Shown: in pieces, positions 4,606-59,471 of the stretch
Numbering within the stretch: the first letter of the stretch is position 1
Layout of the letters: every line of letters starts with the position of its first letter
Assembly (NCBI GenBank): GCA_902774115.1
Contig: CACYHH010000001.1
Location: forward strand, 186,001-250,000
Source of the DNA: an uncultured Spirochaetales bacterium
GTDB lineage: Bacteria > UBP6 > UBA1177
Reading direction: 5' to 3'
DNA length: 64,000 nt
Translations under genes and position numbers: made by a program
Notes under the pieces: generated by a model
Seen by the model: the letters and a program-made list of their open reading frames with translations, nothing else
Database searches by the model: none
What the model was told of the DNA's origin: nothing

Positions 4606-4630
4606 GAGACGTTTCAGGAAACGCCTCTAC
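4606..4630 (-). repeat. REP-like GTAG palindrome, copy 1
   Basis: On the minus strand this reads GTA followed by arms related to GAGACGTTTC and GAAACGTCTC around a CT loop; one arm base differs. The GTAG at the hairpin foot and the CT are hallmarks of REP sequences handled by RAYT enzymes. Other copies are at 30782-30806, 58842-58866 and 58938-58962. Confidence 0.8.
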
Positions 4631-4642
4631 AGATTCTCGGCG

Positions 4643-4673
4643 CCCCTGAGACAGGGGAGCTGCCGCAAGCGGC
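4643..4673. repeat. double GC-rich hairpin (dispersed intergenic repeat type)
   Basis: CCCCTG/CAGGGG (4643-4648, 4652-4657) is followed by GCCGC/GCGGC (4662-4666, 4669-4673). The arrangement resembles the 49403-49439 element, which also has a CCCCT...AGGGGAG hairpin next to a second stem. Confidence 0.7.
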
Positions 4674-4705
4674 TGAGGAGTCAGATTTTCGAAATAATTG
4701 GAACG

Positions 4706-10733: not shown

Positions 10734-10761
10734 GAAAAATATTGAATTTTGTTTTGCGGAG

Positions 10762-10814
10762 CGGGAACGGTTGCCTTGCCTCTCCCGAAGTGAGAGGCAA
10801 GGCAACCGTTCCCG
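10762..10814. repeat. 23-base perfect inverted repeat, 7-base loop
   Basis: Arms 10762-10784 and 10792-10814 are fully complementary, with loop CCGAAGT. The arm includes direct repeats of TTGCC. It sits between the ORF6N gene's stop and the typA promoter. There is no T-tract on either side, so it is more likely a REP/MITE-like element than a standard terminator. The adjoining sequence GGTCATTGAGTGAAGTCGAA resembles ACTGAGCTTAGTCGAAG at 49499-49515. Confidence 0.92.
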
Positions 10815-10850
10815 GTCATTGAGTGAAGTCGAAATGAACGATCGCAGACC

Positions 10851-29758: not shown

Positions 29759-30778
29759 ATGAGTGAAAACTATATTCTCGGCATAGAAAGCAGCTGCGAT
29801 GATACTTCGGTCTCGGTGGTTTCGTCCGATTATCATGTTCTATCTGTAAAAACCGTTTCCCAGACGAGCGTTCACAGGCTTTTCGGCGGTGTCATTCCCG
29901 AAATCGCTTCAAGAAACCATCTCGCGTGGGTTATTCCGGCAGTCAATGCGGCGCTTAAAGATTCCGGCAGAACGCAAGAGGATATTTCTGCGATTGCAGT
30001 TACGAACTATCCCGGACTGACGGGCAGTCTTCTTATCGGCGTCAGTGCGGCGAAAGGGCTCGCTTTGGGCTGGAAAAAGCCGGTAATTGCGGTCAATCAC
30101 CTGAATGCGCACATCGCTTCAGCTTTTCTCGAAAGGGAGAAACGGCCTGAATTTCCGTATCTCGCTCTCGTTGTTTCGGGCGGACACACATCTCTCATAG
30201 ATATTTCGGAAAACGAAAGAACAGTTCTCGGCGAAACGATGGACGATGCGGCTGGAGAGGCTTTCGACAAAATCGCGAAGATGGCTGATCTCGGCTATCC
30301 GGGAGGTCCGATAATCGACAAAATGGCGGCAACAGGCGATGCAAAGAAATATAATCTGCCGTATTTATTGAAAAATAATAACAAATATGCCGATGATATC
30401 GTTTTTTCGTTCAGCGGAATAAAATCTGCCGTAAAACGCTTTCTTGACGAAGGAGAGGTAGATATGCCTTCTCTTATGGCTTCGTTCCAGAACCGGATCG
30501 TCGAACTTATTGAAAGAAAAGTTAAACTCGCTTTAAGCAGAAAAAAATATACCGCTTTCGTTGTTTCGGGCGGCGTCAGTGCAAACAGCGCTGTCAGAAA
30601 AATGGCTGAAAACATCGCTTCAAAATACGGGCTTGCACTCTATATGCCTGAACTCAAATACTGTCAGGATAACGGAGCAATGGTCGCAGCAGCGGCAATG
30701 CCGGATTTTTTCAAAGGAAATTTCTCGAACCTCGATTTTGATGTCGCTCCGACAGTCAGACCGAAAATCCACGGTTAA
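29759..30778 (+). CDS. tsaD: tRNA t6A37 threonylcarbamoyltransferase TsaD
   Basis: The 339-residue ASKHA-fold protein transfers the threonylcarbamoyl group to A37 of ANN-decoding tRNAs, with TsaB and TsaE. Motifs: ILGIESSCDDTSVSVV, GGVIPEIASRNH, metal-binding HLNAHIASAF, VVSGGHTSL, GEAFDKIAKMADLGYPGGP and the C-terminal CQDNGAMVAAAA. The gene is complete and of usual length. It ends 4 bases before a REP-like palindrome lying between this gene and the convergent pilR. Confidence 0.97.
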   Translation: MSENYILGIESSCDDTSVSVVSSDYHVLSVKTVSQTSVHRLFGGVIPEIASRNHLAWVIPAVNAALKDSGRTQEDISAIAVTNYPGLTGSLLIGVSAAKGLALGWKKPVIAVNHLNAHIASAFLEREKRPEFPYLALVVSGGHTSLIDISENERTVLGETMDDAAGEAFDKIAKMADLGYPGGPIIDKMAATGDAKKYNLPYLLKNNNKYADDIVFSFSGIKSAVKRFLDEGEVDMPSLMASFQNRIVELIERKVKLALSRKKYTAFVVSGGVSANSAVRKMAENIASKYGLALYMPELKYCQDNGAMVAAAAMPDFFKGNFSNLDFDVAPTVRPKIHG

Positions 30779-30781
30779 AGT

Positions 30782-30806
30782 GAGACGTTTCAGGAAACGT
30801 CTCTAC
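30782..30806 (-). repeat. REP-like GTAG palindrome, copy 2
   Basis: On the minus strand it reads GTA plus perfect arms GAGACGTTTC and GAAACGTCTC around a CT loop. It fills the gap between the convergent tsaD and pilR stops, where it may also act as a bidirectional transcription barrier (inference). Confidence 0.85.
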
Positions 30807-30816
30807 ATTTTCAGGG

Positions 30817-32244
30817 TTATTCTTTATCGTCTTTGATGCCGAGTTTGCTCATTCTGTATCTGAGCATTCTTTCAGTCAGATTGAGCAGGACGCATGTGTC
30901 GTGACGGTTATAGTTTGTCTTTTTAAGTGCTTGAATTATATAGCGTTTTTCAATATCAGCCAGAATTTCGTCAAGATCTACATTGTGTGAGAGATCAACT
31001 TCGAAAGGATTTGACTCAGCACTCTGCGGTTTCGGCATTGAAGGCATCGTTTTTTCGAAATGTGTCTCGGTAACGAGCCCGTCATGAGCGAAAATCGTGC
31101 CTCGCTCGACGATATTTTTGAGCTCTCTGACGTTTCCCGGGAAGGTGTAGTGATTAAGAAAATCAAGAGTTTCTTCGGAAAATCTGAAATTTGTTCCTGT
31201 TTTTTTTGAAAACTGATCCAAAAACATGTTGGCAAGCGGCATGATATCTGCGTGCCTTTCGGAAAGCGGCGGGATATAAAGCTCGATTACGTTCAGTCTG
31301 AAGTAGAGGTCTTCACGGAACTTTCCTTTTTTGATCTGTTCCTGAAGATTTTTGTTTGTTGCCGCGATAAGGCGTACCCCGGTCGGTATTTTTTCTGTTC
31401 CGCCGACACGTGTGAAAACGCGTTCCTGAAGAACTCTGAGCAGTTTTACCTGCATGTTTTCTCCGAGTTCGCCGATTTCATCAAGAAAAAGAGTACCGTT
31501 TCCGGCAACTTCAAAGTAACCTTTTTTTGTCTGGTATGCGCCGGTGAAAGAGCCTTTTTCGTGACCGAAGAGCTCGCTTTCAAGAAGGTTTTCGGGGATC
31601 GCGCCGCAGTTTATCGGATACCACGGAAGATCGCCTCTGCCGCTGTGTTTGTGGATGAAGTTGGCAAGGACTTCTTTTCCCGTTCCGCTGTCGCCGGTTA
31701 TAAGGACTGTGCTGTCTGTCGGGGCGATGCGGAGCGCAAGTTCGAGGATTTTTTTCATCTGAGGGCTTTGTGCCACGATTCCTGTTTCTTCAGGAATATT
31801 CTGAAAACCGGTGTCGGTCCGTTTTGTCTGCGCGGTTTTTACCGGTTCATTGTTTTTCTGTGTTTGTGCCGCGGCAACGCACTTTTTTACGATGTCGCGT
31901 ATTTCTGCGACGTTGAACGGCTTGCTGACATAGTCGACTGCACCGAGTTCGATTGCTTTTATGGCCTGTTCTGTCGAAGCATAAGCGGTGATGACGATTA
32001 CCTGCGATTTCGGGCTTGTATGAAGCAGTTCGTTCAGAAGATCGATACCGTCTATCGCTTCCGGCATATTGTAATCCATTAAAATTACTGTAAATTTTTC
32101 TTCTTTCAGCTTCCTTAGGGCGATTTCTCCATTTTCTGCCGTGGTGACATCGTATCCGTCTTTTTTCAGCAGGATCTGTAAAAACTGCCGCATACTGAGT
32201 TCGTCGTCGATAACTAAAATTTTAACTTTTTCGGAAGATTCCAT
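30817..32244 (-). CDS. pilR: sigma-54-dependent response regulator, PilR-like
   Basis: The 475-residue NtrC-family activator has a receiver domain (1-120) with phospho-acceptor Asp57 in ILMDYNMP, an AAA+ domain (about 165-400) with Walker A GDSGTGKE and Walker B GTLFLDEIGEL, and a Fis-type HTH at the C-terminus (IIQALKKTNYNRHDTCVLLN). The sigma-54 contact loop reads GSFTGA instead of the usual GAFTGA. Its position directly after a PilS-like kinase in the pilBTC block identifies it as the pilin-gene activator. The ATG overlaps the kinase stop (TAATG). No pilA gene is in the window. Confidence 0.9.
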   Translation of the reverse strand: MESSEKVKILVIDDELSMRQFLQILLKKDGYDVTTAENGEIALRKLKEEKFTVILMDYNMPEAIDGIDLLNELLHTSPKSQVIVITAYASTEQAIKAIELGAVDYVSKPFNVAEIRDIVKKCVAAAQTQKNNEPVKTAQTKRTDTGFQNIPEETGIVAQSPQMKKILELALRIAPTDSTVLITGDSGTGKEVLANFIHKHSGRGDLPWYPINCGAIPENLLESELFGHEKGSFTGAYQTKKGYFEVAGNGTLFLDEIGELGENMQVKLLRVLQERVFTRVGGTEKIPTGVRLIAATNKNLQEQIKKGKFREDLYFRLNVIELYIPPLSERHADIMPLANMFLDQFSKKTGTNFRFSEETLDFLNHYTFPGNVRELKNIVERGTIFAHDGLVTETHFEKTMPSMPKPQSAESNPFEVDLSHNVDLDEILADIEKRYIIQALKKTNYNRHDTCVLLNLTERMLRYRMSKLGIKDDKE

Positions 32245-39129: not shown

Positions 39130-39162
39130 ATTCCGTTTTTTTGGATTTTTATGGAGGACTCT

Positions 39163-42100
39163 ATGAAAAAGTTTTTATCTCTTCTGGTTTTTCTGTTTCC
39201 GGTATTTCTTTTTGCTGTTATCGGTCAGAACGGTATTTCCATTGCTCCCGACGGCACTCTGCTGAAATGGGAGGAAGGTGCGTGGGACTTCTTCATTATG
39301 CACAAATCGGTTCTTGAAAGAAGCCCTGAACACAATGCCGAAATCAATGATGACGGAACCCCAGGCGAAGATCCCAGCAATCCTCAGGCAGACTCAGTTG
39401 TCGACCCGGCAGTAGGAACGACTTACACTCTTACTTCAAAGCACATTCCGCCGGATGCCGATGTCTCCAGAGCATTCCTCATCTGGCTTGCGGATGTTGA
39501 TCCCTATAAACTTGACCAGCCGACAAAAAATTCGGTAACGCTCACTTTCACGAATGCTGCAGATCCCACTCTTACTTATTCTCAGGAAGTCAAGGCCTCC
39601 TATCAAGGCGATATTTCAAAAGACAGCAAGGGTGTGTTTGAATACGAAGCCGTCCGCGACAGTGTTGCTCCGCAGCTCAACAAGGAACCTTACTGTCCCG
39701 GAGAAACCGCTGGATACACCGGCTACTACACATACAGAGTCGAAGTTTCCGACTTCATGAAAAAAATCGTCGCGATGGGTGAAGAAAGAGGCATGCAGCC
39801 GGGCGAAGCCCTTTACGGCGACTACAATGTCAAAGGGATAGAATCATCAAACCACTGCCTGTACATGAAACAAAGTTCGATGGCAGGCGGCTGGGCGCTT
39901 CCTTTCGTCTACACTTCTTCAAACATCCGCGCTAAGAAGATTTACTTCTATCACGGTCTTGAAGCTTACCAGGCCAAAAATGCTTTCATAACGGTCAGCG
40001 GTTTCGAACTCCCAGACGACGCGGTCATCAGACTCGGTCTTGTCGTTTTTGAAGGCGATCCGGGCAGAGCCAGAACAGGCAACGGCATTACAACTTTTCC
40101 TCCTGAAGGTCTTTCCGTCAGCGGCTTTGCGACCCCGAATGATTACAAAATTCTTTTCAACAAGTGCAATCCGCCTAAAACTGAACCGCTCAACTACACT
40201 GAAATTTACAACTCTATATCGTCAATCTTCGGCTGGCAGGACAGCGAGGAAACCTGCATCGGCAATCCTGACACACCGCTGGATCCTGCGAACCCGATTG
40301 AGTATGCAATCGATGCCGACACTTTCCTTGTAGATTCGAGATTCCCGCCTTTCGACACGATGTTCAGCAAAGGCGACATGCAGTTCGGTCTTAAGATCGG
40401 TGCCAACCAGGATCAGATTCTTACGAACTTCCTTGTTGTCAGCGTTGATACCAGACCTCCGCAGTTTGATATTCCTGAAAACAGATTCACCCCGAACGGA
40501 AGAGAGAAAGACTCCTGCTCATGCGCGAAAGATCCTGATACTTTCTGTGCGGACAGACCTTTCTACTACATGATCAAAGTTCAGAACTGGGGTGAGGATT
40601 CGGCAACGGGTGTAATGCTTCAGGACAAACTTCCGTTCCAGGTCGAATATGTTCCCGGCACTACTGAAATTGCTACTAAAATCAACGAAGAAGGGCTCGG
40701 CACCGACTGGGAAATCATTCCGGATGTTGACGGAAAATTCCCGTTCGAAGAACCGAGAGTGGTTGCAGACGTGCTTGGACACTGCCGGCAGAGCGACTCG
40801 GTATGCGAACAGAGCGCATGGGTAAGATTTGTCGTCAGACCGAAAGCAAACCTTGCGAAAAACGAAGTTATTAAAAATATGGCTTCAATCACTTCAAACG
40901 AGACCTCCGGAGCTGTTTTCAATACGAACAGCAATATTCCGCTCAGACTCAAACAAGGTTCGTGCCCTGCTGTTTCGGAATGCGAACTTCCTCCGAAATC
41001 ACAGTGCGGCGGCGTAAAAATCGAAGGCAACGACAACTACTGCACCAGAGATGAAGAGTGCGGAAACGGTAAAAAATGTATCGACAACGAATGTAAGGAT
41101 GATGTTTCCGGCAACCTTTCGAAAGGCGCTGAAGTAACTTTCGGCGAAGGGGTCAACTCTCCTTCCAACGAAGGTTCGGTTATACTTATTCCTTCTTCGA
41201 GCGAAGGAATTGTCTTAGGTCAGTTCTACCTTGCGGCTGACGGCGGCGAAGGCCAGTCCTATAAGTTCGGCAAACTTATGGTCAAATTCCAAGCCGACAG
41301 CGACATCGAGGCGAAGAACTTCAAACTTTACAAAGATGTGAACAGCGACGGCAAAGTCGACGGCGGCGATACGGAGATCGCTTCCGCAGATGCACCGAAA
41401 AACTCTTATGTAACTTTTAATATCGGCGAAGCTAACAGCCTTGTTTCCGCAAAAGGCAAAACCAACTTCATCGTTACGACAGACGCATCGACGAATTCAG
41501 ATTCTCACCCCGGCAAATTCAGCATGATCATCGAAGGACCTGAATCGTTCAACCTCGAAGATTCCGAAAAAATAGAAGCCAAGGGAAGCAGGGTAGAGTT
41601 TGTTGAATACCAGTTCGAGCCGACGGAAGGCTTTATCATCACAAAAGGAAATATGGATCCGAAAGTTCCTTCATACAAAGATTTCAACGGTGAGCACGAA
41701 ATGCTTCAGATCAGGACGAAATCTAAAGGAGCAGCTGATTCTGTAACTTCGATAACTCTCAAAACTCCGGGCAGTTATGTCAAATTCGGCGACGGCATCA
41801 AATCGGTTTCCGTAATTATCGACAAAGACGGAAACGGACAGCAATCCAACGGCGACGAAGTCATCGCGAAAATCACCAGTTTTGACGGTTCATCTTCAGT
41901 TGTCATCGACAATCTCGGAGATCTTCTCAAGTATGAAAAGGATGAGGAGAAATACCTTGTTTTCAAAGTCGAGTTCAAAATGTCGGCAGGCGAGAAGGCG
42001 AAGATTCAGGTTTCAGGCGTAAAAGTAAAGAGCGGCAATCCTGTAGTCGAACTTCCCGTATCGTCAAACGAATTTGCTTACGAATGCGACAGCTCAGACC

Positions 42101-42246
42101 CGAATATGTGCGCTGAAGAAGATGACGGCGGCTGCGCGATATCGGAACTTCCAGAAGACAACAGCTCCGCGGTTTACATGCTCATTGCGGCTTTCATGTC
42201 GGTTCTCGCATTTGCTTTCGTAAAAGTTTACGGACTCAGAAAGTAA
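39163..42246 (+). CDS. giant surface protein with DUF11-like domain and C-terminal anchor
   Basis: The 1,027-residue product has a signal peptide (MKKFLSLLVFLFPVFLFA). An N-terminal ~420-residue region of unknown fold contains WEEGAWDFFIMHKS and TYRVEVSDFMKKIVAMGEE. A DUF11-type repeat follows (PFYYMIKVQNWGEDSATGVM), then a Cys-rich EGF-like patch (CTRDEECGNGKKCIDNEC) and Ca-binding-like loops (DVNSDGKVDGGD, DKDGNGQQSNGDE). It ends with DDGGCAIS, a membrane helix and GLRK, like MYXO-CTERM sorting tails that are cut and anchored at Cys. The start at 39163 is set by GGAGG; the upstream in-frame ATG overlaps it. It is a convergent paralogue of 42518-45583. A surface adhesin or sheath role is inferred. 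Confidence 0.82.
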   Translation: MKKFLSLLVFLFPVFLFAVIGQNGISIAPDGTLLKWEEGAWDFFIMHKSVLERSPEHNAEINDDGTPGEDPSNPQADSVVDPAVGTTYTLTSKHIPPDADVSRAFLIWLADVDPYKLDQPTKNSVTLTFTNAADPTLTYSQEVKASYQGDISKDSKGVFEYEAVRDSVAPQLNKEPYCPGETAGYTGYYTYRVEVSDFMKKIVAMGEERGMQPGEALYGDYNVKGIESSNHCLYMKQSSMAGGWALPFVYTSSNIRAKKIYFYHGLEAYQAKNAFITVSGFELPDDAVIRLGLVVFEGDPGRARTGNGITTFPPEGLSVSGFATPNDYKILFNKCNPPKTEPLNYTEIYNSISSIFGWQDSEETCIGNPDTPLDPANPIEYAIDADTFLVDSRFPPFDTMFSKGDMQFGLKIGANQDQILTNFLVVSVDTRPPQFDIPENRFTPNGREKDSCSCAKDPDTFCADRPFYYMIKVQNWGEDSATGVMLQDKLPFQVEYVPGTTEIATKINEEGLGTDWEIIPDVDGKFPFEEPRVVADVLGHCRQSDSVCEQSAWVRFVVRPKANLAKNEVIKNMASITSNETSGAVFNTNSNIPLRLKQGSCPAVSECELPPKSQCGGVKIEGNDNYCTRDEECGNGKKCIDNECKDDVSGNLSKGAEVTFGEGVNSPSNEGSVILIPSSSEGIVLGQFYLAADGGEGQSYKFGKLMVKFQADSDIEAKNFKLYKDVNSDGKVDGGDTEIASADAPKNSYVTFNIGEANSLVSAKGKTNFIVTTDASTNSDSHPGKFSMIIEGPESFNLEDSEKIEAKGSRVEFVEYQFEPTEGFIITKGNMDPKVPSYKDFNGEHEMLQIRTKSKGAADSVTSITLKTPGSYVKFGDGIKSVSVIIDKDGNGQQSNGDEVIAKITSFDGSSSVVIDNLGDLLKYEKDEEKYLVFKVEFKMSAGEKAKIQVSGVKVKSGNPVVELPVSSNEFAYECDSSDPNMCAEEDDGGCAISELPEDNSSAVYMLIAAFMSVLAFAFVKVYGLRK

Positions 42247-42317
42247 TCACAAAATAATCTTTCAGCATCTCCTCTGTTATAAATCATAAATCACAAAATC
42301 CCGGTCGTAAGTACAGT

Positions 42318-42353
42318 CTGTAATATCTGTAATATCTGTAGTATTTGTAATAT
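42318..42353. repeat. four tandem 9-base repeats between convergent paralogues
   Basis: Four near-identical units: CTGTAATAT, CTGTAATAT, CTGTAGTAT, TTGTAATAT. The rest of the 271-base spacer (42247-42517) holds no gene, and I see no clear terminator in it. Confidence 0.9.
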
Positions 42354-42517
42354 CCCTTAAATATCCGCTATCTCTTATCTCTGTAACGCTCAATATTGCA
42401 ATATCGACTGCTGCCGGAATAAGCAGAGTAGTAGTGGATAGTGATGAAATTGCTGATTAGGATTGAGATGTTGTCTGGTTTATTTTGGATTTTTAGGATC
42501 AGGAAAGAAAGCGGGAA

Positions 42518-45500
42518 TTATTTTTTGGAAGCGAAAACTTTGACACCTGCAAGAGCGAGAAGCGCTGCAAATGCTGCGAAAACAATGTAAAGCGTGCTGC
42601 TGTCGCTTTCTTCAACTGCTGAAATTGCACAGCCGCTGCTGTCATCGTCGCCGGAAGCGCATGAAGTCGGGTCGGTTTCGTCGCATTCATAGGTAAATTC
42701 CTTCGAAGTGAGAGGAACGCCGACAGCAGAGCCGGTACCTGTTTTTACGCTTGAAATCGTGATTCTTGCCGTTTCGCCGACAGACATTTTGAACTCGGCT
42801 TTGAAGATTAGGTATTTTTCTTCGTTTTCGCCGTACTGAAGAAGTTCGTCAAGGTCTTCGAAAGACATCTGGGTGGAGTTATCGAATGAACTTACCTTCT
42901 GAAGTACCGTGTCGCCTTCCGACTGAACGCCGTTGCCGTCTCTGTCAAGAATGAGAGAGATAGACTTGATGCCTTCGCCGAATTTTGCAAAACTGCCGGA
43001 CGTTTTGAGTTTTATCGTCTTGATTTTATCAGATGCACCGATCGATTTTGTTCTGACCTGAAGCATCTCGTGCTCGCCGTTGAAAGTTTTGTATGAAGGA
43101 ACAGGCGGATCGAACTGACCTGTGGTGAATACAAAACCTTCAAACGGTTCGAATCTGAATGTAGCGAAATCCGTTCTTTTGCCGTTTACCTCGATTTTTC
43201 CGCCTGATTTGAGCGCGAAAGATTCCGGACCTTCGATTGTCATGCTGAATTTGCCGGGCTGACCTGAAGTAGCGGTTGTCTTGACATCGGCAGTGACGAT
43301 GAAGTATGTCTTTTCAGCGGTTTTTATCTGTCTGTTTGCCGCATCGGTGATCGAGAACTCAACAGATGAGTTCTTAATTTCAGCGGTACCAAGTTCAGGG
43401 TCACCTTCATCGACTTTTGCGTTACCGTTTGCGTCTTTGAAAAGTTTGAAATTTTCCGCTTTGACATCTGCGTCTTTGTTAAATTTGAACAGCGCCTTGA
43501 CGATCTCGTAGGATTTGTCTTTGTCACCGTCTGAAAGGAGGTAGAACTGACCGAGAACGAGTTTTTCGCTCGGAGACGAGATAAGGATTTCGTTGTCGCT
43601 TCCGCTTCCCGGGCTGTCTTTGCCCATATCGAAGGAAACAGTCAAATCATTCGTTGCCAGATCGCCGCTGCCGCCTTCGGAAACACACTCGTTGTTTCTG
43701 CATTTTTTGCCGTCTTTGCAGTCTTTGTCTTCAGAACAATAGTTGTCGTTGCCTTCGATTCTGACACCGCCGCACTGAGCTTTCGGAGGAAGTTCGCATT
43801 CGGTAATAAGCGGGCATTTTCCGAGTTTGAGTCTGAGCGGGATGTTACTGTTCGAATTATACGGCATGCTGTCGCCTGTGATTACGGCAGTATTTCTGAT
43901 AACTTCGTTTTTGGAAAGGTTTGCTTTCGGTCTGACTACGAATCTTACCCATGCACCCTGGCTGCAGTAATCGGGTTCGTTGAGTTTGTCGCAGTGCTGC
44001 GTCATAACGTCGGTGATCATCTGCGGGTTGGTGTAGGGGAATCCGCCGTTTACATCGGGAACAGCCGTCCAGTCAGTTCCGTTGCCGTTTTCATCGAATT
44101 TTGTTGCGATTTCAGTTGTTCCTGCAACATATTCGACCTGAGCCGGAAGCGTATCCTGAAGCATTACGTTGCCAGCCTGGTTTTCACCCCAGTTCTGGAT
44201 TTTGATCGTGTAGTAGAAAGGTCTGTCGGAGCAGACTGCATCTTCGTCAGTCGAGCATGAGCAGTAGTCTTTCTCTCTGCCGTTCGGGGTTTTCGGGTTT
44301 GCCGGAATATCGAATTTCGGTGCTTTCGTATCAACGCTGACGACAAGAAGGTTCGTGTAAACCTGATCCTGGTTTGCGCCGATTTTGAGGTTAAGCATCG
44401 TATCGCCTTTGTTGAATTTGCCGTAGAAAGGACCGGTAGGACCTGAGTCGACCATAAGAATGTCGGCATCGATCGCGTATTCGATCGGGTTGCTCGTATC
44501 GCTTGGATTATCGGGGTTGCCGATGCACCAGTAGTTTTCACTGTCTTCCCAACTGAAAATAGAGGAAATCGAGTTGAAGATTTCAGTATAGTTGAAAGCC
44601 TGTCCCAAGCTGTCCTGATATCTCGGCGGGTTGCAGTTGTTGAAAAGAAGAGCGAAGTCGTTCGGATTGCTCTGACCGCTTACTGAAAGAGCTTCAGGTT
44701 CAGCCTGACCGAAAAGAGTTGTTCCGGTCGCGCTTGCAAGTCCGGGGTCGCCTTCAAAAACTACAAGACCGAGTTTGATGACTGCTTCAGCCGGAAGTTC
44801 GAAACCTTGAACAGGGAATGTCTCTGCCTGGAAACGGTATGCTGCGAGACCGTTGTAGAAGTAGATTTTCTTCGGATTGATGTTAGCTGAAGTGTAGACG
44901 AAAGGCATGAACCAGCCGCCGACCAAGCCGCTTGTCGTAAGGTAGTTCTGGTGATTGGAGCACTCCATACCCTTTACGTTGTAGTTACCGTAAAGAGCTT
45001 CACCTGGTTTCATACCTGCAGCTTCACCCATTGCGATGATTTCTTTCATGAAGTCGGAAACTTCGACTCTGTATGTGAAAACGCCTGTTGCTCCTGTTGC
45101 CGAATCGGCAGGCATGTTGAGAGCTTCGTATTCAAAGTTGCCGATCTGTGTCGTTGCAAGGTTGCCCTGTGTTGAAGCAGTGATTTCTCTCGAAAGAGTA
45201 ATCGAAGGATCTGATGCGTTCGTGAATGTAAGTGTTACGGAATTGTCTGTTGGACCGTTGAGATTATCCGGATCCTGCGGAGCAAGCCATACGAGGAAAG
45301 CTCTGTCAATGTCTGCATCCGGCGGGATGTGTTTCGCTTCAAGTTTATAGGTCGAGCCGATCTCCTGCTCGATGCATGTGTCTGCCTGCGGGTTGCCTGC
45401 AGTGGTGCTTGCTGATCCAGTGACCTGTTTGATCAAAGATTTGTGCATGATGAAGAAGTCCCACGCACCCTCTTCCCATTTGATTTCATTACCGTTGGAA

Positions 45501-45583
45501 TCGCGGGAGATACCGTTGCTGCCTAGTGCCGCAAAGAGCATTACCGGAACAAAAACCATAAGAACAAGTAAGAATTTTTTCAT
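42518..45583 (-). CDS. giant surface protein, paralogue of 39163-42246
   Basis: The 1,021-residue product has the same architecture as its convergent neighbour: signal peptide, long N-terminal region (WEEGAWDFFIMHKSLIKQ), DUF11-like repeat (PFYYTIKIQNWGENQAGNVM), Cys-rich EGF-like patch (CSEDKDCKDGKKCRNNEC), Ca-loop-like DANGNAKVDEGD and DRDGNGVQSEGD, and the tail SSGCAIS, membrane helix, ASKK. ATG 45583 has GGAGG five bases upstream; a GTG two codons earlier is less likely. Its promoter (45618-45645) is the best in the window. The two copies differ throughout, so the duplication is old, but the block order is fully kept. Confidence 0.82.
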   Translation of the reverse strand: MKKFLLVLMVFVPVMLFAALGSNGISRDSNGNEIKWEEGAWDFFIMHKSLIKQVTGSASTTAGNPQADTCIEQEIGSTYKLEAKHIPPDADIDRAFLVWLAPQDPDNLNGPTDNSVTLTFTNASDPSITLSREITASTQGNLATTQIGNFEYEALNMPADSATGATGVFTYRVEVSDFMKEIIAMGEAAGMKPGEALYGNYNVKGMECSNHQNYLTTSGLVGGWFMPFVYTSANINPKKIYFYNGLAAYRFQAETFPVQGFELPAEAVIKLGLVVFEGDPGLASATGTTLFGQAEPEALSVSGQSNPNDFALLFNNCNPPRYQDSLGQAFNYTEIFNSISSIFSWEDSENYWCIGNPDNPSDTSNPIEYAIDADILMVDSGPTGPFYGKFNKGDTMLNLKIGANQDQVYTNLLVVSVDTKAPKFDIPANPKTPNGREKDYCSCSTDEDAVCSDRPFYYTIKIQNWGENQAGNVMLQDTLPAQVEYVAGTTEIATKFDENGNGTDWTAVPDVNGGFPYTNPQMITDVMTQHCDKLNEPDYCSQGAWVRFVVRPKANLSKNEVIRNTAVITGDSMPYNSNSNIPLRLKLGKCPLITECELPPKAQCGGVRIEGNDNYCSEDKDCKDGKKCRNNECVSEGGSGDLATNDLTVSFDMGKDSPGSGSDNEILISSPSEKLVLGQFYLLSDGDKDKSYEIVKALFKFNKDADVKAENFKLFKDANGNAKVDEGDPELGTAEIKNSSVEFSITDAANRQIKTAEKTYFIVTADVKTTATSGQPGKFSMTIEGPESFALKSGGKIEVNGKRTDFATFRFEPFEGFVFTTGQFDPPVPSYKTFNGEHEMLQVRTKSIGASDKIKTIKLKTSGSFAKFGEGIKSISLILDRDGNGVQSEGDTVLQKVSSFDNSTQMSFEDLDELLQYGENEEKYLIFKAEFKMSVGETARITISSVKTGTGSAVGVPLTSKEFTYECDETDPTSCASGDDDSSGCAISAVEESDSSTLYIVFAAFAALLALAGVKVFASKK

Positions 45584-45603
45584 TGTCACCTCCGAAGTTT
45601 AAC

Positions 45604-52236: not shown

Positions 52237-53097
52237 ATGAAAAAATTCTTGTTTTTAGTCCTTTGGGTAGCGGTATTTCTTTGCGGATGTGCCTCGGCCG
52301 AGAAAACCGAAGAAAAAAACGGGGTCAAAAATAATGTTCATCACCTGCAGTGGTCGAGCCGGTCACCTGAAAAACTGGATTGGCAGGGAGCTTTAAATTA
52401 TTGCAAAAATGTCACGGACGGCGGTTTCAAAGACTGGAGACTGCCGAATATCGACGAACTTCGCGATAGCATAGAAAACTGTTCCAAAACAGAAGCCGGC
52501 GGCGGGTGCAAAGTCAGTGATAAAAACGGATGTCTTTCATCGGAGTGCAGAAATCCTAAAGGTTCGTGTGCCTGTGAGAGAAAAAATAAAAGTGTTTACA
52601 GCAAATTTGACGGATACGATATTGGTTTATGGTCATCATCAGAGCTTTCCGATAATCCTGACAGTGCGTGGGGTGTGGTTTTTTACAGCGCAATGATCGG
52701 CAGTAACAAAAAAAGCGGAGAATTTTATGTCAGATGTGTGAGAACGCCAGATGAAAACGATAAGAGGTTTTGGGTTGAAGATAAAACCATTGTTATGGGA
52801 GCTCTTAACAGAAGGGACATCGACGCATATATAAGGAGAAATTTGGCTAAGGTTTTGTGGTGTTATCAAAAGGGTCTTGAAAAAAATCCTGAACTTGTCG
52901 GAATAGTTGTTTTCAATTTCATTATTTCTGAAAGCGGCGACGTAAGTTCCGTAAAAGTGCATAGAACCACGCTGGGTAGTGCCGAAGTCGAAAACTGCGT
53001 TGCCGAACAAATCAAAAAAATCAAATTTCCTGCTCCGAAAGGCGGCGGAATAGTTATCGTGAACTACCCCTTCACATTCAAGAACAAGGAAGAGTGA
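52237..53097 (+). CDS. lipoprotein with DUF1566 and AgmX/PglI-type C-terminal domain
   Basis: The 286-residue product has a leader ending in lipobox FLCGC. A DUF1566 (Lcl C-terminal-like) domain spans about 38-165: LDWQGALNYC, DWRLPNIDELRD, CSKTEAGGGCKVSDKNGC, GLWSSSELS, FYVRCVR. The C-terminal AgmX/PglI TonB-like domain (about 185-284) shows IDAYIRRNLAKVLWCYQKGL, VENCVAEQIKKIKFPAPKGGG. Each domain has conserved paired cysteines. It starts 10 bases after the permease gene, so it may be cotranscribed with the exporter. It is one of four AgmX-type paralogues within 7 kb. An envelope-spanning or surface-binding role is inferred; TonB-like domains usually engage outer-membrane partners. Confidence 0.82.
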   Translation: MKKFLFLVLWVAVFLCGCASAEKTEEKNGVKNNVHHLQWSSRSPEKLDWQGALNYCKNVTDGGFKDWRLPNIDELRDSIENCSKTEAGGGCKVSDKNGCLSSECRNPKGSCACERKNKSVYSKFDGYDIGLWSSSELSDNPDSAWGVVFYSAMIGSNKKSGEFYVRCVRTPDENDKRFWVEDKTIVMGALNRRDIDAYIRRNLAKVLWCYQKGLEKNPELVGIVVFNFIISESGDVSSVKVHRTTLGSAEVENCVAEQIKKIKFPAPKGGGIVIVNYPFTFKNKEE

Positions 53098-53261
53098 TGT
53101 GTTAATCAATATTTGCACTTCCTAAATTTTTTCGAAAAAATCCGATAAAAAGACGAAAATCGTGACGATTATCCGCGTTATGTACTATGGTCGGGATATT
53201 GAAAAACAATTGGATTCGATACTTTAACAAAACTACAAAATTTGCTTAACTGCCGGATAAC

Positions 53262-54503
53262 TCACACAAAATCAGCCGGGATCGCCAAAGCTGACGTTTC
53301 ACCTTTTTTGACGGAAACGACTTTGTCCGTGCAGCAGATGACTGTAGACTGACCGATCTGAACATCTTTCAGGCGGCCTGTTATGAAAAAGTTCTTTGCG
53401 TCGTCGGAATTAGGCGTTGCGGTCTTTTTGATTTCAACGGGATAAATTATGCTATTCTGTTCGATGATGAGGTCGATTTCGATTTTGTCTTTGTCTCGGT
53501 AAAAATAAATCGGAGCTTCAACGCCGTTGTTGGCAAACGATTTGATTATTTCACTCACAATGTAGGTTTCAAAAAAAGCTCCCGCCATCGCACCTGTCTG
53601 CATGACGAGCGGGCTTGTCCACTTGGTGAGATACGCGGCAAGTCCGGTATCCATGAAGTAAAGTTTCGGAGTTTTTACGACCCGCTTTTCAACTTTTGTC
53701 GAGTATGGCTTCAGAAGGTAGACGATTCCCGAAGTCGTGAGCAGTGACATCCATTTTTTTGCAGTTCCCTCGCTGATCCCGCATTCCTGTGCCATGTCAG
53801 TGTAGTTCAGAAGCTGGCCCGTTCTCGATGCCGCTATCGTTATGAACTGCAAAAACTGCATTTCGTCGGCGACCTGAGTCAGGCTTCTGATGTCGCGCTC
53901 TATGTAGGTTTTAAGGTATGATGCGTAAAAATCTTTCGGATCGACATTTCCTTTTACGACTTCGGGATAACCGCCGGTATAGATGCGCTCCCAGATTTTC
54001 TGAGTAGAAAAAGTGCGGTTTGAAAGGGCGTTGTTCCGTTCCAGAATATACTCTTTTGTCGGAATAAAGTTGTCGGAAAAACCGTCGCGGCGGATCTCCC
54101 GCGCCGAAAGCGGATAAAGCTGGACGATACCGATCCTTCCAGAAAGGCTTTCGGTTGCCGCTTCCATCAGTCTGAACTGCTGGCTTCCGGTGAGATAAAA
54201 CATGCCGTTTTTACGGTTTTTGTCGATCTCAATTTTAAGATAACGGAAAAAATCGGGTACATACTGGACTTCATCAAACATATACGGACTCGGATGGAGT
54301 TCGAGAAAGGTTTTCGGATCAGTTTTTGCCGACCGCTCTTCCGCAATGTCGTCAAAAGTGGTGCTCCTCACCGATTTCGCATCGGTCATTTTCTTTAAAA
54401 GGGTGGTCTTTCCCGTCTGTCTCGCGCCGGTCACGAGAACTGCCGGAAATGAAGATTCGAGCCGTGTTAAAGTCTTTTCCGCATGCCGTTCAAAAAAAGC
54501 CAT
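53262..54503 (-). CDS. AAA+ ATPase with DUF4143 (AAA_14 family)
   Basis: The 413-residue product has Walker A VTGARQTGKTTLLKK (about 24-38), Walker B PYMFDEVQYVPDF, sensor LTGSQQF, a winged-helix-like middle (GISEGTAKKWMSLLTTSGIVYLL) and a C-terminal DUF4143 with a nuclease-like strand pattern DLIIEQNSIIYPVEIKK. The family is widespread, often acquired, and of unclear function; links to toxin-antitoxin or defence loci are only suggested. It is on the opposite strand within a run of plus-strand paralogues, so it looks inserted. Its promoter overlaps a dyad (54531-54563). Confidence 0.87.
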   Translation of the reverse strand: MAFFERHAEKTLTRLESSFPAVLVTGARQTGKTTLLKKMTDAKSVRSTTFDDIAEERSAKTDPKTFLELHPSPYMFDEVQYVPDFFRYLKIEIDKNRKNGMFYLTGSQQFRLMEAATESLSGRIGIVQLYPLSAREIRRDGFSDNFIPTKEYILERNNALSNRTFSTQKIWERIYTGGYPEVVKGNVDPKDFYASYLKTYIERDIRSLTQVADEMQFLQFITIAASRTGQLLNYTDMAQECGISEGTAKKWMSLLTTSGIVYLLKPYSTKVEKRVVKTPKLYFMDTGLAAYLTKWTSPLVMQTGAMAGAFFETYIVSEIIKSFANNGVEAPIYFYRDKDKIEIDLIIEQNSIIYPVEIKKTATPNSDDAKNFFITGRLKDVQIGQSTVICCTDKVVSVKKGETSALAIPADFV

Positions 54504-54530
54504 TTTTCACCTCCATTATCTGCAAAATTT

Positions 54531-54581
54531 GGGATAATCCGCAGTCACGTTTTATATTATCCCATAAAATTGAGATGTCAA
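54531..54581 (-). promoter_or_regulatory. promoter with operator-like dyad for AAA/DUF4143 gene
   Basis: Minus strand: TTGACA (54581-54576), 16 bases, TAATAT (54559-54554). GGGATAAT (54531-54538) and ATTATCCC (54556-54563) form an inverted repeat covering the -10, consistent with repressor binding. Confidence 0.65.
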
Positions 54582-54723
54582 CAGTGCTTTTTACACTTCG
54601 ACTCGAATTATTTTTGCGGATTCCGCATTTTTTGTCCGACCTGTGACTTATCAATCTGATTTCTTGCTTTCTGTTTTCATTTTCTCTATTTTTTCCGTGT
54701 TTTTGCGCTTACGGAGTGAAACC

Positions 54724-55965
54724 ATGAAAAAACTTTTGTTTTTAGTCCTTTTGATTTCAGCTTTTTTGACAGTTGTGTTATTTGCCGATGCAGAAAAAAA
54801 GGAAGAAAAAGCCGAAACTAGTGACAAAACTATTGCAAGAGGATTGACAACTATAGAAATCCCGCATTCAGCTACGGTAAAAGGAGCCCTTGATAAAAAA
54901 GTAATAGAGGAGCATGTCAGGAAAATTCTGCCAAAACTCAGATTTTGCTATGAAAACGGAGTTCGTAAACATCCTGAAATCGCCGGAATAGTCGTTCTCA
55001 ACTTCGTTATCCAGCCAACGGGAGATGTCAGTGAAGCAAAGGTCGCGACAACAACGATGAATGATTCAGGTGTCGAAAAATGTGTTGCTGATCAGGTAGG
55101 CAAAATCAGATTTCCTGCTTCGAAAGACGCAGGTACTGTTGTTGACAACTATTCTTTTGTATTCAGAAACGCGGTGGTCGAGGAAAAAGTTTCGGATAAC
55201 AATAAAACCTTCCTGTGGTCCGACCGTTCTCCAGAAAAGATGACTTGGAACGATGCTGTGAACTACTGCAAAAATCTGTCGGAAAAAGGTTCGGGCGGCT
55301 GGCATCTTCCGAATATCGACGAATTGAGAAAAGGGATAATCGGATGTTCGAAAACCGAGTCCGGCGGCGAGTGCAGAGTGAGCGAGAAAAACGGTTGTCT
55401 TTCTTCCGAGTGCAAAAACCCGAAAGGTTCGTGCAGCTGCGAGAGGATCGCAAAAGGGAGTTTTTACAGTGCCAACTGCGATGAAGACAATATCGCTCTC
55501 TGGTCTTCATCAACTCTTTCCGACAATCCGGACAGTGCGTGGGGCATCGTTTATTACAGCGCAATGGTCGGCAGCAACAAAAAAAGCGGAAAATTTTATG
55601 CGAGATGCGTTAAGGAAGTGGATTTAAAAGAAGAATCCGTTTCCCATGAGACTCCGGTAATAATGGGTGCTTTAAACAGATGCACGATCGATTCGTATGT
55701 CAGAAAAAGTGTCGGTAAAATAAGACAATGTTATGAAAACGGACTTGCGAAAGATAAGAAACTTGCCGGAAGAATCCTCATCAACTTCATTATTTCGGCA
55801 AGCGGCGATGTGAGTTCTGCCAAAGTGCAGAGAACGACGATGGGCAATGCCGAAGTCGAAAACTGCGTTGCCGGAGTAATCAAAAAAATCAAATTTCCTG
55901 CTCCGAAAGGGGGCGGAATAGTTATCGTGAACTATCCGTTCGTGTTCAAACCCGAAAAAAAGTGA
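54724..55965 (+). CDS. secreted protein AgmX-domain / DUF1566 / AgmX-domain
   Basis: The 413-residue product has a signal peptide (MKKLLFLVLLISAFLTVVLFA), a first AgmX/PglI-type domain (about 55-155: HVRKILPKLRFCYENGV, VEKCVADQVGKIRFPASK), a DUF1566 domain (about 165-300: MTWNDAVNYC, WHLPNIDELRKG, ALWSSSTLS) and a second AgmX-type domain (about 315-410: KIRQCYENGLAKDKKL, VENCVAGVIKKIKFPAPKGGG). The second domain is nearly identical over its end to that of 52237-53097, pointing to duplication or gene conversion. GGAG precedes the ATG. No lipobox Cys. Its leader is the twin of 50671-50741. Confidence 0.82.
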   Translation: MKKLLFLVLLISAFLTVVLFADAEKKEEKAETSDKTIARGLTTIEIPHSATVKGALDKKVIEEHVRKILPKLRFCYENGVRKHPEIAGIVVLNFVIQPTGDVSEAKVATTTMNDSGVEKCVADQVGKIRFPASKDAGTVVDNYSFVFRNAVVEEKVSDNNKTFLWSDRSPEKMTWNDAVNYCKNLSEKGSGGWHLPNIDELRKGIIGCSKTESGGECRVSEKNGCLSSECKNPKGSCSCERIAKGSFYSANCDEDNIALWSSSTLSDNPDSAWGIVYYSAMVGSNKKSGKFYARCVKEVDLKEESVSHETPVIMGALNRCTIDSYVRKSVGKIRQCYENGLAKDKKLAGRILINFIISASGDVSSAKVQRTTMGNAEVENCVAGVIKKIKFPAPKGGGIVIVNYPFVFKPEKK

Positions 55966-55985
55966 ATGTGCAGAGGCAATTCTTT

Positions 55986-57560
55986 ATGACTCAAAAATCC
56001 CCGTCGATCTTCAAAAAAAGTTCTGATTTGGCGGTTCTCACGGTAATTTCGCGTATTTTGGGCTTGGTGAGGGAGTCTGTCACGGCAGCTTTTTTAGGAA
56101 CGGGGGCTTTGTCCGACGCTTTTGCGGTCGCTTTCACGATCCCCAATGTCGTGCGGAGGCTTTTTGCCGACGGAGTCATTTCATCGGCTTTCATTCCGCG
56201 TTTTAAAGGGCTTCTCGCAGAAAACAAAAAGGGTGAGGCAGCCGAATTTCTGAGTGCGCTTTTCACTCTTGTGAGCCTTGTTTCGTTTGTTTTTGTCGCG
56301 GTTGCATTCGTTTTTTCGGGCGGAATAACGGCGATTTTGGCTCCGACGCTTGAAGAAAACGCGGCGGCAGAGGCTGCACTTCTTGCGAAAATAATGTTTC
56401 CTTACGTTTTTTTCATTTCGCTTGCAGCTCTTACGCAGAGTGTCCTCAACAGTTCGGGGATCTTCAGGCCGAGCGGAGCTTCTCCGATAGTTTTCAACAT
56501 CTCATTCATAACGCTTGCATTTCTCCTTGCGCCTCTTACCGAAAATCCGGCGCGTGCTCTTGCAGTCGGAGTTTTTGCAGGCGGATTCATGCAGCTTGCG
56601 ATACAGCTTCCTTTCATGGCGAAAACACTTTTCAAGTTTACTTTTACGAGCCTGAAAAAAGCGTTTGCGAACCCGAACATCGCAAAATCGGGAAAGATGG
56701 TCTTAGCCGCGCTTTTCGGCACGGGCGCATACCAGCTGAACATTCTTCTCACGACAAACATGGCTAACAGAGCGGGGGAAGGCGTTGTCAGCAGCCTTAG
56801 ATTTTCGGCGAGAATCGAAGAACTTGTGATAGGTGTTTTCGTCGTGACGCTGAGCACGGTGATCCTGCCGGAACTTGTAGAAAACGCGAAAAACAGGAAT
56901 TTTGCAAAACTTACGGAAAACCTTGACTCAGCCTTGAAATTCGTCGCGTTCGTATCGATTCCGGCTGTAGTTTTCACGCTCGTCAATTCGACTGAAATGG
57001 TGCGACTTCTTTTCGGATTCGGCAAATTTGACGAAAAATCGGTAGGACTTACTGCTTTTGCCCTCGATTTCAGGATCGCCGGGCTCTTTTTTCTTGCACT
57101 TTCAAGGATCCTGAACTCGTTTTTCTACGCTCTTGAAAAAACGAAACTTCCGGTTTTTGCAGGGCTTGTCTCGATTGCGGTGAACTTTGTCGCTGCATAT
57201 TTTCTCGTTGACCCCCTTGCCGGAGGCGGTGTCGCGCTTGCATCATCGCTTGCATCGCTTGCGGCGGCGGTCATACTTTTTGCCGCAGTTTTCAAATTTT
57301 TCAAAGGCGGTTCTAATTTCGGGAAAGCGATTCTTTATTTTGCTAAAATATCAATAATTTCAGTTGTTTCCGTTTTACATTTATTCTTTTTGAAAGGGCA
57401 TGTATATGCTTTTTTCAGTTCGATTTTCACGAACGCCAAAATAAGCGAACTCTGCTCGTTTGCAGTTTCCGCGGCTGTTTTCGGAGTGCTTTTCATCACA
57501 ATTTCTGCTCTTCTGAAAGACGAAACCCTTGCACTTGCAAAAGAAGCGTTTAAAAAGTAA
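55986..57560 (+). CDS. murJ: lipid II flippase MurJ/MviN
   Basis: The 524-residue MATE-like/MOP-fold protein has about 14 membrane helices. Signature strings: ISRILGLVRESVTAAFLGTG, SDAFAVAFTIPNVVRRLFADG, SSAFIPRF and LSRILNSFFYALEKTKLPV. It flips lipid II across the inner membrane for peptidoglycan synthesis. Start: ATG 55986 with AGAGG nine bases upstream, or GTG 55962 overlapping the previous stop (GTGA); the ATG places the start just before the usual MurJ N-terminus. It is embedded among the DUF1566/AgmX paralogues, probably by position only, though coupling would make it cotranscribed. Confidence 0.93.
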   Translation: MTQKSPSIFKKSSDLAVLTVISRILGLVRESVTAAFLGTGALSDAFAVAFTIPNVVRRLFADGVISSAFIPRFKGLLAENKKGEAAEFLSALFTLVSLVSFVFVAVAFVFSGGITAILAPTLEENAAAEAALLAKIMFPYVFFISLAALTQSVLNSSGIFRPSGASPIVFNISFITLAFLLAPLTENPARALAVGVFAGGFMQLAIQLPFMAKTLFKFTFTSLKKAFANPNIAKSGKMVLAALFGTGAYQLNILLTTNMANRAGEGVVSSLRFSARIEELVIGVFVVTLSTVILPELVENAKNRNFAKLTENLDSALKFVAFVSIPAVVFTLVNSTEMVRLLFGFGKFDEKSVGLTAFALDFRIAGLFFLALSRILNSFFYALEKTKLPVFAGLVSIAVNFVAAYFLVDPLAGGGVALASSLASLAAAVILFAAVFKFFKGGSNFGKAILYFAKISIISVVSVLHLFFLKGHVYAFFSSIFTNAKISELCSFAVSAAVFGVLFITISALLKDETLALAKEAFKK

Positions 57561-57597
57561 AGTACCGCGCTTTATGTTTTTGTGACGAGGTGAACTC

Positions 57598-58650
57598 ATG
57601 AGAAAAATTTTGTTTTTTATGTTTGTGACTGCGGCGTTTTTTACGGCTGCGCTTTTTGCCGATGCAGAGCAAACCGCAGAAAAACCGGCGGAAGGGGTTA
57701 AAACTGAAGAAAGTGCTGAACCGCAGGGCGAGCCTCAGGCTGAAGCAGCGTCTGAAAAAGAGAATGAGCTTGAGATCGAAGAAGCAGCTGCCGCAATACA
57801 GGGCGATTCTGCGGCAGAAGGTGGAATCGAAATCGTGGAGAGTGAGGGAAATTTCATCTTCTCGGCCCGTTCTTTAAACAAAATGACGTGGAACGAGGCT
57901 CAGAATTACTGCAAAAAACTCGAATTCTGGGGTGAAACGTGGCGTCTGCCGAATATTGACGAAATCAGGGAGCTTATGCGGAACTGCCCTGCGACAGAGC
58001 CTGGCGGAAGCTGCCGCGTGAGCGATGAAGGAAACTGTCTTGCCGGAAACTGCTCAAGTCCGAAAAATTCATGCACTTGCGAGAGAATGCCGAAAAACAG
58101 AGGTCACTACAGCATGTTCGGTGATGCGGATTACATCGGATTGTGGTCCGGATCAACGCTTTCCGATGATGACAAAAAGGCTTGGGGCGCAGTTTTTTAC
58201 AGCGGAATGATAGGCAGTGTCAGCAAAGAGTCGAAACTCTATGTAAGATGTATTGCAAGGTCTGACTGGTCTTTTGCTGAAAAAGATGAAGATAAGGATG
58301 AGAAAAAGGATGAAGAATCTGACAAAAAAAATGAATCCGCTTTTTCAGCTCTCAGTAAAAAAGACATAAATAAACAGTTCGACAGAAAGATGAGAGATTT
58401 TTCATTCTGCATTTACAAAGGGAAGCAGGAGGACAGCGACATGAAACACGGACGTGTCACTATCGACTATACGGTTTCTCCTAAAGGCGAAGTTCTCTAC
58501 TCCGGCGTGCTGATGAGCACATTCGGCAATCTTACCGTTGAAAATTGTGTCGCGACCAAAGTTAGGGAGATGAAATTTCCTGCTCCGAAACGCGGTGCCA
58601 CGGTTTTTCTAAGCCATTCGATTCTGTTGTATCTGAGAAAAGATGAATAG
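57598..58650 (+). CDS. secreted DUF1566 protein with divergent AgmX-type domain
   Basis: The 350-residue product has a signal peptide (MRKILFFMFVTAAFFTAALFA). A Glu/Ala-rich segment (about 22-80) is followed by DUF1566 (about 82-220: MTWNEAQNYC, WRLPNIDEIRELM, CPATEPGGSCRVSDEGNC, GLWSGSTLS, LYVRCIA), a charged Lys/Asp/Glu linker (KDEDKDEKKDEESDKKNE type) and a C-terminal domain (about 250-347) that keeps the paired Cys (FSFCIYKG, VENCVATKV) but has lost part of the helix found in paralogues. The ribosome site is GAGGTG. It is the third paralogue sharing a GTGAAxxCATG start context. Confidence 0.78.
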   Translation: MRKILFFMFVTAAFFTAALFADAEQTAEKPAEGVKTEESAEPQGEPQAEAASEKENELEIEEAAAAIQGDSAAEGGIEIVESEGNFIFSARSLNKMTWNEAQNYCKKLEFWGETWRLPNIDEIRELMRNCPATEPGGSCRVSDEGNCLAGNCSSPKNSCTCERMPKNRGHYSMFGDADYIGLWSGSTLSDDDKKAWGAVFYSGMIGSVSKESKLYVRCIARSDWSFAEKDEDKDEKKDEESDKKNESAFSALSKKDINKQFDRKMRDFSFCIYKGKQEDSDMKHGRVTIDYTVSPKGEVLYSGVLMSTFGNLTVENCVATKVREMKFPAPKRGATVFLSHSILLYLRKDE

Positions 58651-58751
58651 CCGTTTCAGGTCGTATTCGACGATTTTTCTGGAAATTTCCTAAGATATTC
58701 CTAAAATAACGCGTTTTTTTGATTAAGGTCTTTTTGAAAGAAGAGGTAAAA

Positions 58752-59471
58752 ATGAAAAAAGTTCTTGTTATCGTTACTGTAATCGTAATAATAGCGCTCT
58801 TTGCCGCTTACAAATGCAGCAGAAGCCGCGGTGCTGAAAATGTAGAGACGTTGCCTGAAACGTCTCAGCCGGCACCAGCAGCAGAACCCGCTCCTAAGGC
58901 GGAAGAACCGGCTCCCGCTGCTGAAGAACAAAAACCTGTAGAGACGTTACCTGAAACGTCTCAAACTGAGCAGAAAGAACCGGCTGCAACTCCCGCAAAA
59001 GAGCCGAAAAAAGAAGGCAGGAAAGCGAAACCTGCTGCGGAAAAGGCTGAAAAAGTAGAAAAAACTGAAAAAGAAGCTCCGAAAGCTGCTCCGGCTGAAA
59101 AGAAACCGGTGTCCAGAGAAGAAAAGGCAGCACCGGAGAGACCGATGGCTGAGGTGAAACGCGCTCCGAATGAAGCGAACATCGACTCGGCAGGTGTTAC
59201 GAAAGTCATCAACGTAAGCCGTTCAGCCATAAAAAGATGCTACGACAAAGCTTTGATCTCAAATCCTCAGCTTAAAGGAAAAATGTCGATAAAAATCGTG
59301 ATCAATAAGGATGGAAGAGTTGACAAAACTGAAATCGTTGATGACACGCTCCATGATGCCGAAGTTGCAAAGTGCGTTAAAGGCGTTATCGGCAGGCTTC
59401 GTTTCCCGAAACCGGCAGAAGGCACAGCTACAGTTACTTTCCCGTTCGCTTTTGATCCGAAAAATCAATAA
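58752..59471 (+). CDS. membrane-anchored AgmX/TonB-like protein with REP-derived segments
   Basis: The 239-residue product has an N-terminal anchor (VLVIVTVIVIIALFAAY), a long Pro/Ala/Glu/Lys-rich periplasm-spanning linker (about 30-140) and a C-terminal AgmX/PglI-type domain (about 145-237) with VSRSAIKRCYDKALISNPQL and VAKCVKGVIGRLRFPKP. This is a TonB-like layout. The linker contains VETLPETSQ twice (residues about 31-39 and 63-71), each encoded by a copy of the GTAG palindrome found in spacers. Start ATG 58752 with AGAGG upstream. Transcription probably starts from TAAAAT (58702-58707) followed by AACGCG and seven T. Confidence 0.85.
   Translation: MKKVLVIVTVIVIIALFAAYKCSRSRGAENVETLPETSQPAPAAEPAPKAEEPAPAAEEQKPVETLPETSQTEQKEPAATPAKEPKKEGRKAKPAAEKAEKVEKTEKEAPKAAPAEKKPVSREEKAAPERPMAEVKRAPNEANIDSAGVTKVINVSRSAIKRCYDKALISNPQLKGKMSIKIVINKDGRVDKTEIVDDTLHDAEVAKCVKGVIGRLRFPKPAEGTATVTFPFAFDPKNQ
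58842..58866 (+). repeat. REP-like GTAG palindrome, copy 3, in frame inside a gene
   Basis: GTAGAGACGTT, then GCCTGAAACGTCTC. The arms pair with one mismatch (G for T). The frame reads VETLPETSQ. Confidence 0.88.
58938..58962 (+). repeat. REP-like GTAG palindrome, copy 4, in frame inside a gene
   Basis: GTAGAGACGTT, then ACCTGAAACGTCTC. It is 96 bases after copy 3, in the same frame and orientation, and again encodes VETLPETSQ. Confidence 0.88.

Follow-up and report, generated by a model that had tools for sequence, protein, structure and literature searches.

How does a short palindromic repeat come to be used twice as coding sequence in one gene, and does the peptide that it encodes come from the DNA element or from the protein? 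This question is raised by a TonB-like gene in a stretch of 64,000 nucleotides from an uncultured rumen bacterium of candidate phylum UBP6, the whole of which is called the window below.

Two copies of the repeat in a TonB-like gene

The initial annotation described a 25-base element in two spacers of the window and two further copies inside the gene at 58752, in frame, in the same orientation and 96 bases apart, each encoding VETLPETSQ in the Pro/Ala/Glu linker of a TonB-like protein. All these positions turned out to be exact (Table 1), and translation from the ATG start codon returned the same peptide for copy 1 (GTAGAGACGTTGCCTGAAACGTCTC) and copy 2 (GTAGAGACGTTACCTGAAACGTCTC). A search of the window for the core with at most 3 mismatches gave 8 matches (4 places on both strands), while 0.00 were expected from 100 dinucleotide shuffles. 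Each in-gene copy is predicted to fold into an 8-bp hairpin of about -11 to -12 kcal/mol (z about -4.7). The description of the host was also fair: a hydrophobic segment at the N-terminus is followed by a linker of Pro/Ala/Glu/Lys and a C-terminal AgmX/PglI (TonB-like) domain, residues 145-234 of the protein matching NF033768 (E=1.6e-26).

Table 1. Location of the host gene, its domain and the repeat copies in the window
Feature	Position	Strand	Evidence
Host gene, TonB-like	58752..59471	+	ORF and NF033768 match
AgmX/PglI C-terminal domain, 3' of the copy-bearing linker	59184..59453	+	NF033768
GTAG REP copy 1, in frame, VETLPETSQ	58842..58866	+	Sequence, shuffles, fold; orthologues
GTAG REP copy 2, in frame, VETLPETSQ	58938..58962	+	Sequence, shuffles, fold; orthologues
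GTAG REP copy, intergenic	4606..4630	-	One core mismatch
GTAG REP copy, intergenic, between convergent genes 29759-30778 (+) and 30817-32244 (-)	30782..30806	-	Sequence

Orthologues without the insertion, the comparison proposed in the initial annotation, were obtained for copy 2, which is shared with G004 and missing from the five genomes G003, G009, G011, G006 and G014. Copy 1 has orthologous copies in G003, G004, G009 and G011; in G006 and G014 its site reads VETTPATV with other codons and nearly unchanged length, so that copy 1 alone is not a clean empty/filled pair. The VETTPATV state may be due to decay or to replacement.

Several other repeats were noticed in the window. Paralogous secreted or TonB-like proteins with repeats in common are clustered at 52600-59470, a strong inverted repeat with arms of 26 nt and a loop of 7 nt is located at 10759-10817, and a large diverged inverted-repeat block, which probably represents two opposed paralogous genes, extends over 39153-45593.

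Structure and distribution of the repeat family

The 25-base unit is a GTAG-type REP. The GTAG tag stands at one end of the stem-loop in nearly all copies (GTAGAGACG...CGTCTC), dozens of dispersed copies occur in the 2.5-Mb genome to which the window belongs, and inverted dimers are present, with a length of 79 bp in MmeI genes, others being intergenic. Position 8/15 of the 22-bp core is paired in 102 of the 114 sampled UBP6 copies (TA 57, GC 22, AT 12 and CG 11), and this covariation indicates that the mobile form is under a real constraint to keep the hairpin. The RAYT-type repeat named in the initial annotation is in agreement with these GTAG REP hallmarks and with the RAYT genes of the same genome, which are flanked by the same palindrome.

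The repeat was found in all 15 genomes of the genus and in none of the 26 searched genomes outside it. Further carriers of the exact pattern are many MAGs of rumen Bacteroidales and three cyanobacterial ones; in Bacteroidales there are, in addition, variants that have the same ends (GTAGAGAC...GTCTC) and different inner stems. Spread by viruses was considered and rejected, as the exact pattern had no match among IMG/VR viral contigs.

DNA origin of the encoded peptide

A codon test on copies picked by their DNA pattern is circular, and the peptide was therefore searched first. In this DNA-blind search of UBP6 ORFs, 51 ETxxET peptides were found against 3.1 expected; in 30 of the 51 the codons are precisely those of the element, and the remaining VETxPET peptides are for the most part only a few base changes away from it. 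These results show that the peptide is derived from the DNA element, as was claimed when the repeat was first said to supply protein sequence. LPET as a sortase signal was rejected, since the copies are internal linkers and not C-terminal signals.

Coding share and reading frame

The name REP implies an extragenic position. To summarize the copies in the sampled loci (stretches around copies in MAG assemblies), 49 of 114 in UBP6 and 28 of 90 in rumen Bacteroidales are coding, while 65 and 62 respectively lie outside the ORFs called by a home-made codon-score caller; the loci were picked for holding the repeat, and these are shares of copies, not of genes.

Nearly all coding copies of both groups (76 of 77) are in phase 0. 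The forward unit is open in this one frame only, GTA GAG ACG TYN CCT GAR ACG TCT, and its reverse complement encodes nearly the same peptide in the same phase, VETF[P/Q]ETSLQ. Coding copies in reverse orientation could use any of three open core frames, but 26 of 27 use phase 0 (p=7e-12 for an expectation of one third), and the reverse frames that read DVSGNVST, which is also polar, are nearly unused except in RAYT genes. The spacing of neighbouring copies (at most 130 bases apart) is divisible by 3 in 15 of 15 coding pairs, compared with 3 of 10 intergenic pairs. Position 8 is T or C in 37 of the 38 coding forward copies and A in none; in intergenic copies it is often A or G, which leads to a stop in the forward frame. 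As for the surroundings, disorder-promoting residues are more frequent in the flanks than in the protein as a whole for 48 of 49 copies in UBP6 and for 13 of 28 in Bacteroidales, and the latter count means that linkers are not the whole explanation.

RAYT transposases and their embedded repeats

With NF047646, two RAYTs were identified within REP clusters of the window's own genome (contigs C3 and C7 of G000), which overturned the reading, taken from a null result with Pfam Y1_Tnp (PF01797), that this genome has no RAYT. Matches were also obtained in 20 of 25 further genomes, while the G000 RAYT as query had no match in 6 of the 15 genus genomes, some of which are incomplete. The own-genome matches score below the NCBIfam cut-off, as do most proteins of the genus, partly because an insertion splits the match, and this insertion is the REP itself.

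In an alignment of ten RAYT ORFs of the genus, an in-frame REP occupies a single site between KKRDIP and QSWLS, just past the HUH domain. The proteins contain MPNHIH, which we take to be the HUH motif, and ITEYIENNV, presumably with the downstream tyrosine of RAYT. The embedded copy belongs to subtype GTGACCTGACAC, TTTCCTGAAA or TTTCATGAAA, and the great majority of the ten ORFs are flanked by the subtype that they embed, forming three RAYT clades each flanked by its own REP subtype; RAYT specificity is thereby made testable. The genes with their own cognate in-frame REP are L246 (G000:C3:183935-184624), L255 (G000:C7), L247-L253 and L262. In the two own-genome RAYTs the embedded copies are in phases 1 and 2, and the codon use is too unusual for the ORF caller. 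None of the 27 well-scoring Bacteroidales RAYT matches, which belong to other clades, has an embedded REP, so it was rejected as a general RAYT trait and is clade-specific. One Bacteroidales RAYT with 43% identity has another GTAG palindrome in its ORF.

It is conceivable, although rather doubtful, that the embedded cognate REP is a working part of the RAYT, for instance in autoregulatory self-binding or as a mark that ties the RAYT to its repeat. If true, RAYTs with an embedded REP might seed coding sequence efficiently.

Host proteins with and without the repeat

The hosts in the own genome include the window gene, FtsY, a SPOR protein, an M23 peptidase, a MORN protein, a TonB-dependent receptor, an ankyrin tail, an HlyD-like protein, three MmeI-type enzymes, the two RAYTs and a protein with a YbbR-like tail, which was assigned by eye and has no Pfam match. 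In Bacteroidales, the hosts are GH3, AnmK, transglutaminase, HU-CCDC81, T9SS sorting domains and others. With in-frame copies in such unrelated protein genes and a conserved reading frame, the likeness to gene entry by Rickettsia palindromic elements (RPE), drawn in the initial annotation, holds.

Between conserved flanks, the linker of HlyD-like orthologues contains a dimer, a single copy, another subtype or none. The 79-bp dimers are absent from MmeI paralogues and from the solved MmeI 5hr4, and dimers wholly within coding sequence add about 21 residues. These are many natural occupied/unoccupied pairs, in which the gain of bacterial coding sequence from mobile DNA could be studied.

Two observations were made besides. 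An MmeI paralogue on G000:C1 (L220) carries a repeat-like insert, CCCCTCTAAGCTAGAGGGG..., in the first inter-domain linker, where paralogues hold the REP dimer, and a seemingly similar sequence follows the REP at 4640-4680 of the window. In T9SS C-terminal sorting domains, related proteins have insertions at a common site, the loops being oppositely oriented (L295 and L296 in G046; L271 and L323).

Probable insertion filtered by tolerance, and its alternatives

The observations are best accounted for by selfish insertion with tolerance as the filter: we hold it highly probable that the GTAG REP was moved, most likely by RAYT, inserted widely, and left in genes those copies that were tolerated. 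The element, single or as an inverted pair (REPIN-like), would be mobilized by the RAYT (HUH tyrosine) transposases of the same genome, and in-gene copies would be kept if the net insertion is in frame and stop-free and the peptide is tolerated. Because only one forward frame is open and the reverse complement gives nearly the same peptide in the same phase, survivors would read VETxPETS or ETxQxTSL, and in UBP6 most of them would lie in linkers of Pro/Glu/Lys/Ala. Copies in linkers would then multiply by tandem duplication, flanks included, and slowly decay, and the inserted peptide probably has no specific function. The near-absence of DVSGNVST frames outside RAYT genes is not predicted by simple tolerance.

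The essential gene ftsY bears on two alternatives. FtsY linkers of 13 genus genomes contain 0 to 4 copies, from the plain PEPEPE of G005 without a copy to the four copies, in 69-bp units, of its relative G010. One copy in the ftsY loci (L226-L238), VQTFPETSQ, is invariant over 27 nt among six species whose NG domains diverge by 10-35% at synonymous codons, and this identity hints at constraint or gene conversion. If the hairpin were kept in genes for a function (mRNA structure, translation pausing or a protein-binding linker), the frame bias might result from that; the constant FtsY copy, the stable mRNA hairpin of the predicted fold and a frame bias exceeding what stop codons alone demand agree with such a function, but the copies change in number and place between FtsY relatives, the hosts share no common function, and the position 8/15 pair is lost in some coding forward copies (CA in 4 and GA in 1 of 38), which makes it improbable. 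Less probable still is that copies spread chiefly when similar linkers recombine or undergo gene conversion, and not by transposition: FtsY copies do have duplicated flanks, in units of 69 and 75 bp, and a long identical block surrounds the copy of the six species, but copies are found in unrelated contexts (MmeI, GH3 and T9SS domains) with no common flanks beyond the element or dimer.

The view that VETxPETS arose as a useful protein linker motif, its intergenic likeness being coincidental or derived, is largely refuted and hardly credible, for although VETTPATV in other codons at the copy 1 site goes part of the way to the unrelated codons that the initial annotation named as the sign of protein-level origin, and native PETAQE-like repeats adjoin element copies in one protein in some cases, the peptide-first search speaks for DNA origin, the intergenic copies have covarying stems and forward-unreadable subtypes (TGA, TAA), and the host proteins are unrelated and entered in both orientations.

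Relation to known repeats

GTAG REPs and their RAYTs were defined, and copies inside genes reported, by Di Nocera et al. 2013 (PMC3733652), and in-gene GTAG REPs as a kind are already known from that work, where the repeats are mostly intergenic and come from Proteobacteria, Cyanobacteria, Chloroflexi and the PVC group. The rumen repeat shares with them the GTAG tag at one end, the short stem-loop, complementary stem variants, inverted dimers, flanking RAYT genes and some in-gene copies, the dimers described there encoding 20-30 aa. It differs by its hosts (UBP6 and Bacteroidetes are not reported there), by a coding share of about a third to four tenths in almost one frame, and by the internal copy in the RAYT genes of the genus. 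RPE are alike in behaviour, as small palindromes in frame in many unrelated genes, and no membership is claimed; RPE-4 and RPE-6 are described in PMC3733652 as CGTC type without a dedicated transposase. In REPINs, first described in Pseudomonas fluorescens (PMC3116915), the unit is a pair of inverted REPs separated by a spacer, which the 79-bp MmeI dimers fit, whereas some rumen dimers lie wholly in coding sequence.

No report of the UBP6/Bacteroidales family, its near-fixed frame or a RAYT-embedded cognate REP was found in the open-licence papers searched. New within this scope are the cross-phylum distribution in the rumen, the high coding share with a near-fixed frame, the copies in ftsY and the RAYTs with their own in-frame cognate REP. 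In two rumen phyla that are not related to each other, a mobile palindrome has repeatedly supplied protein sequence, almost always in the same frame, and the conserved FtsY is among the recipients.

A second GTAG palindrome of Bacteroidales, GAGACGCACGGCCGTGCGTCTC, was also observed, which is read in frame as VETHGRASLQ in AnmK and other proteins (L285, L286, L287, L289 and L280).
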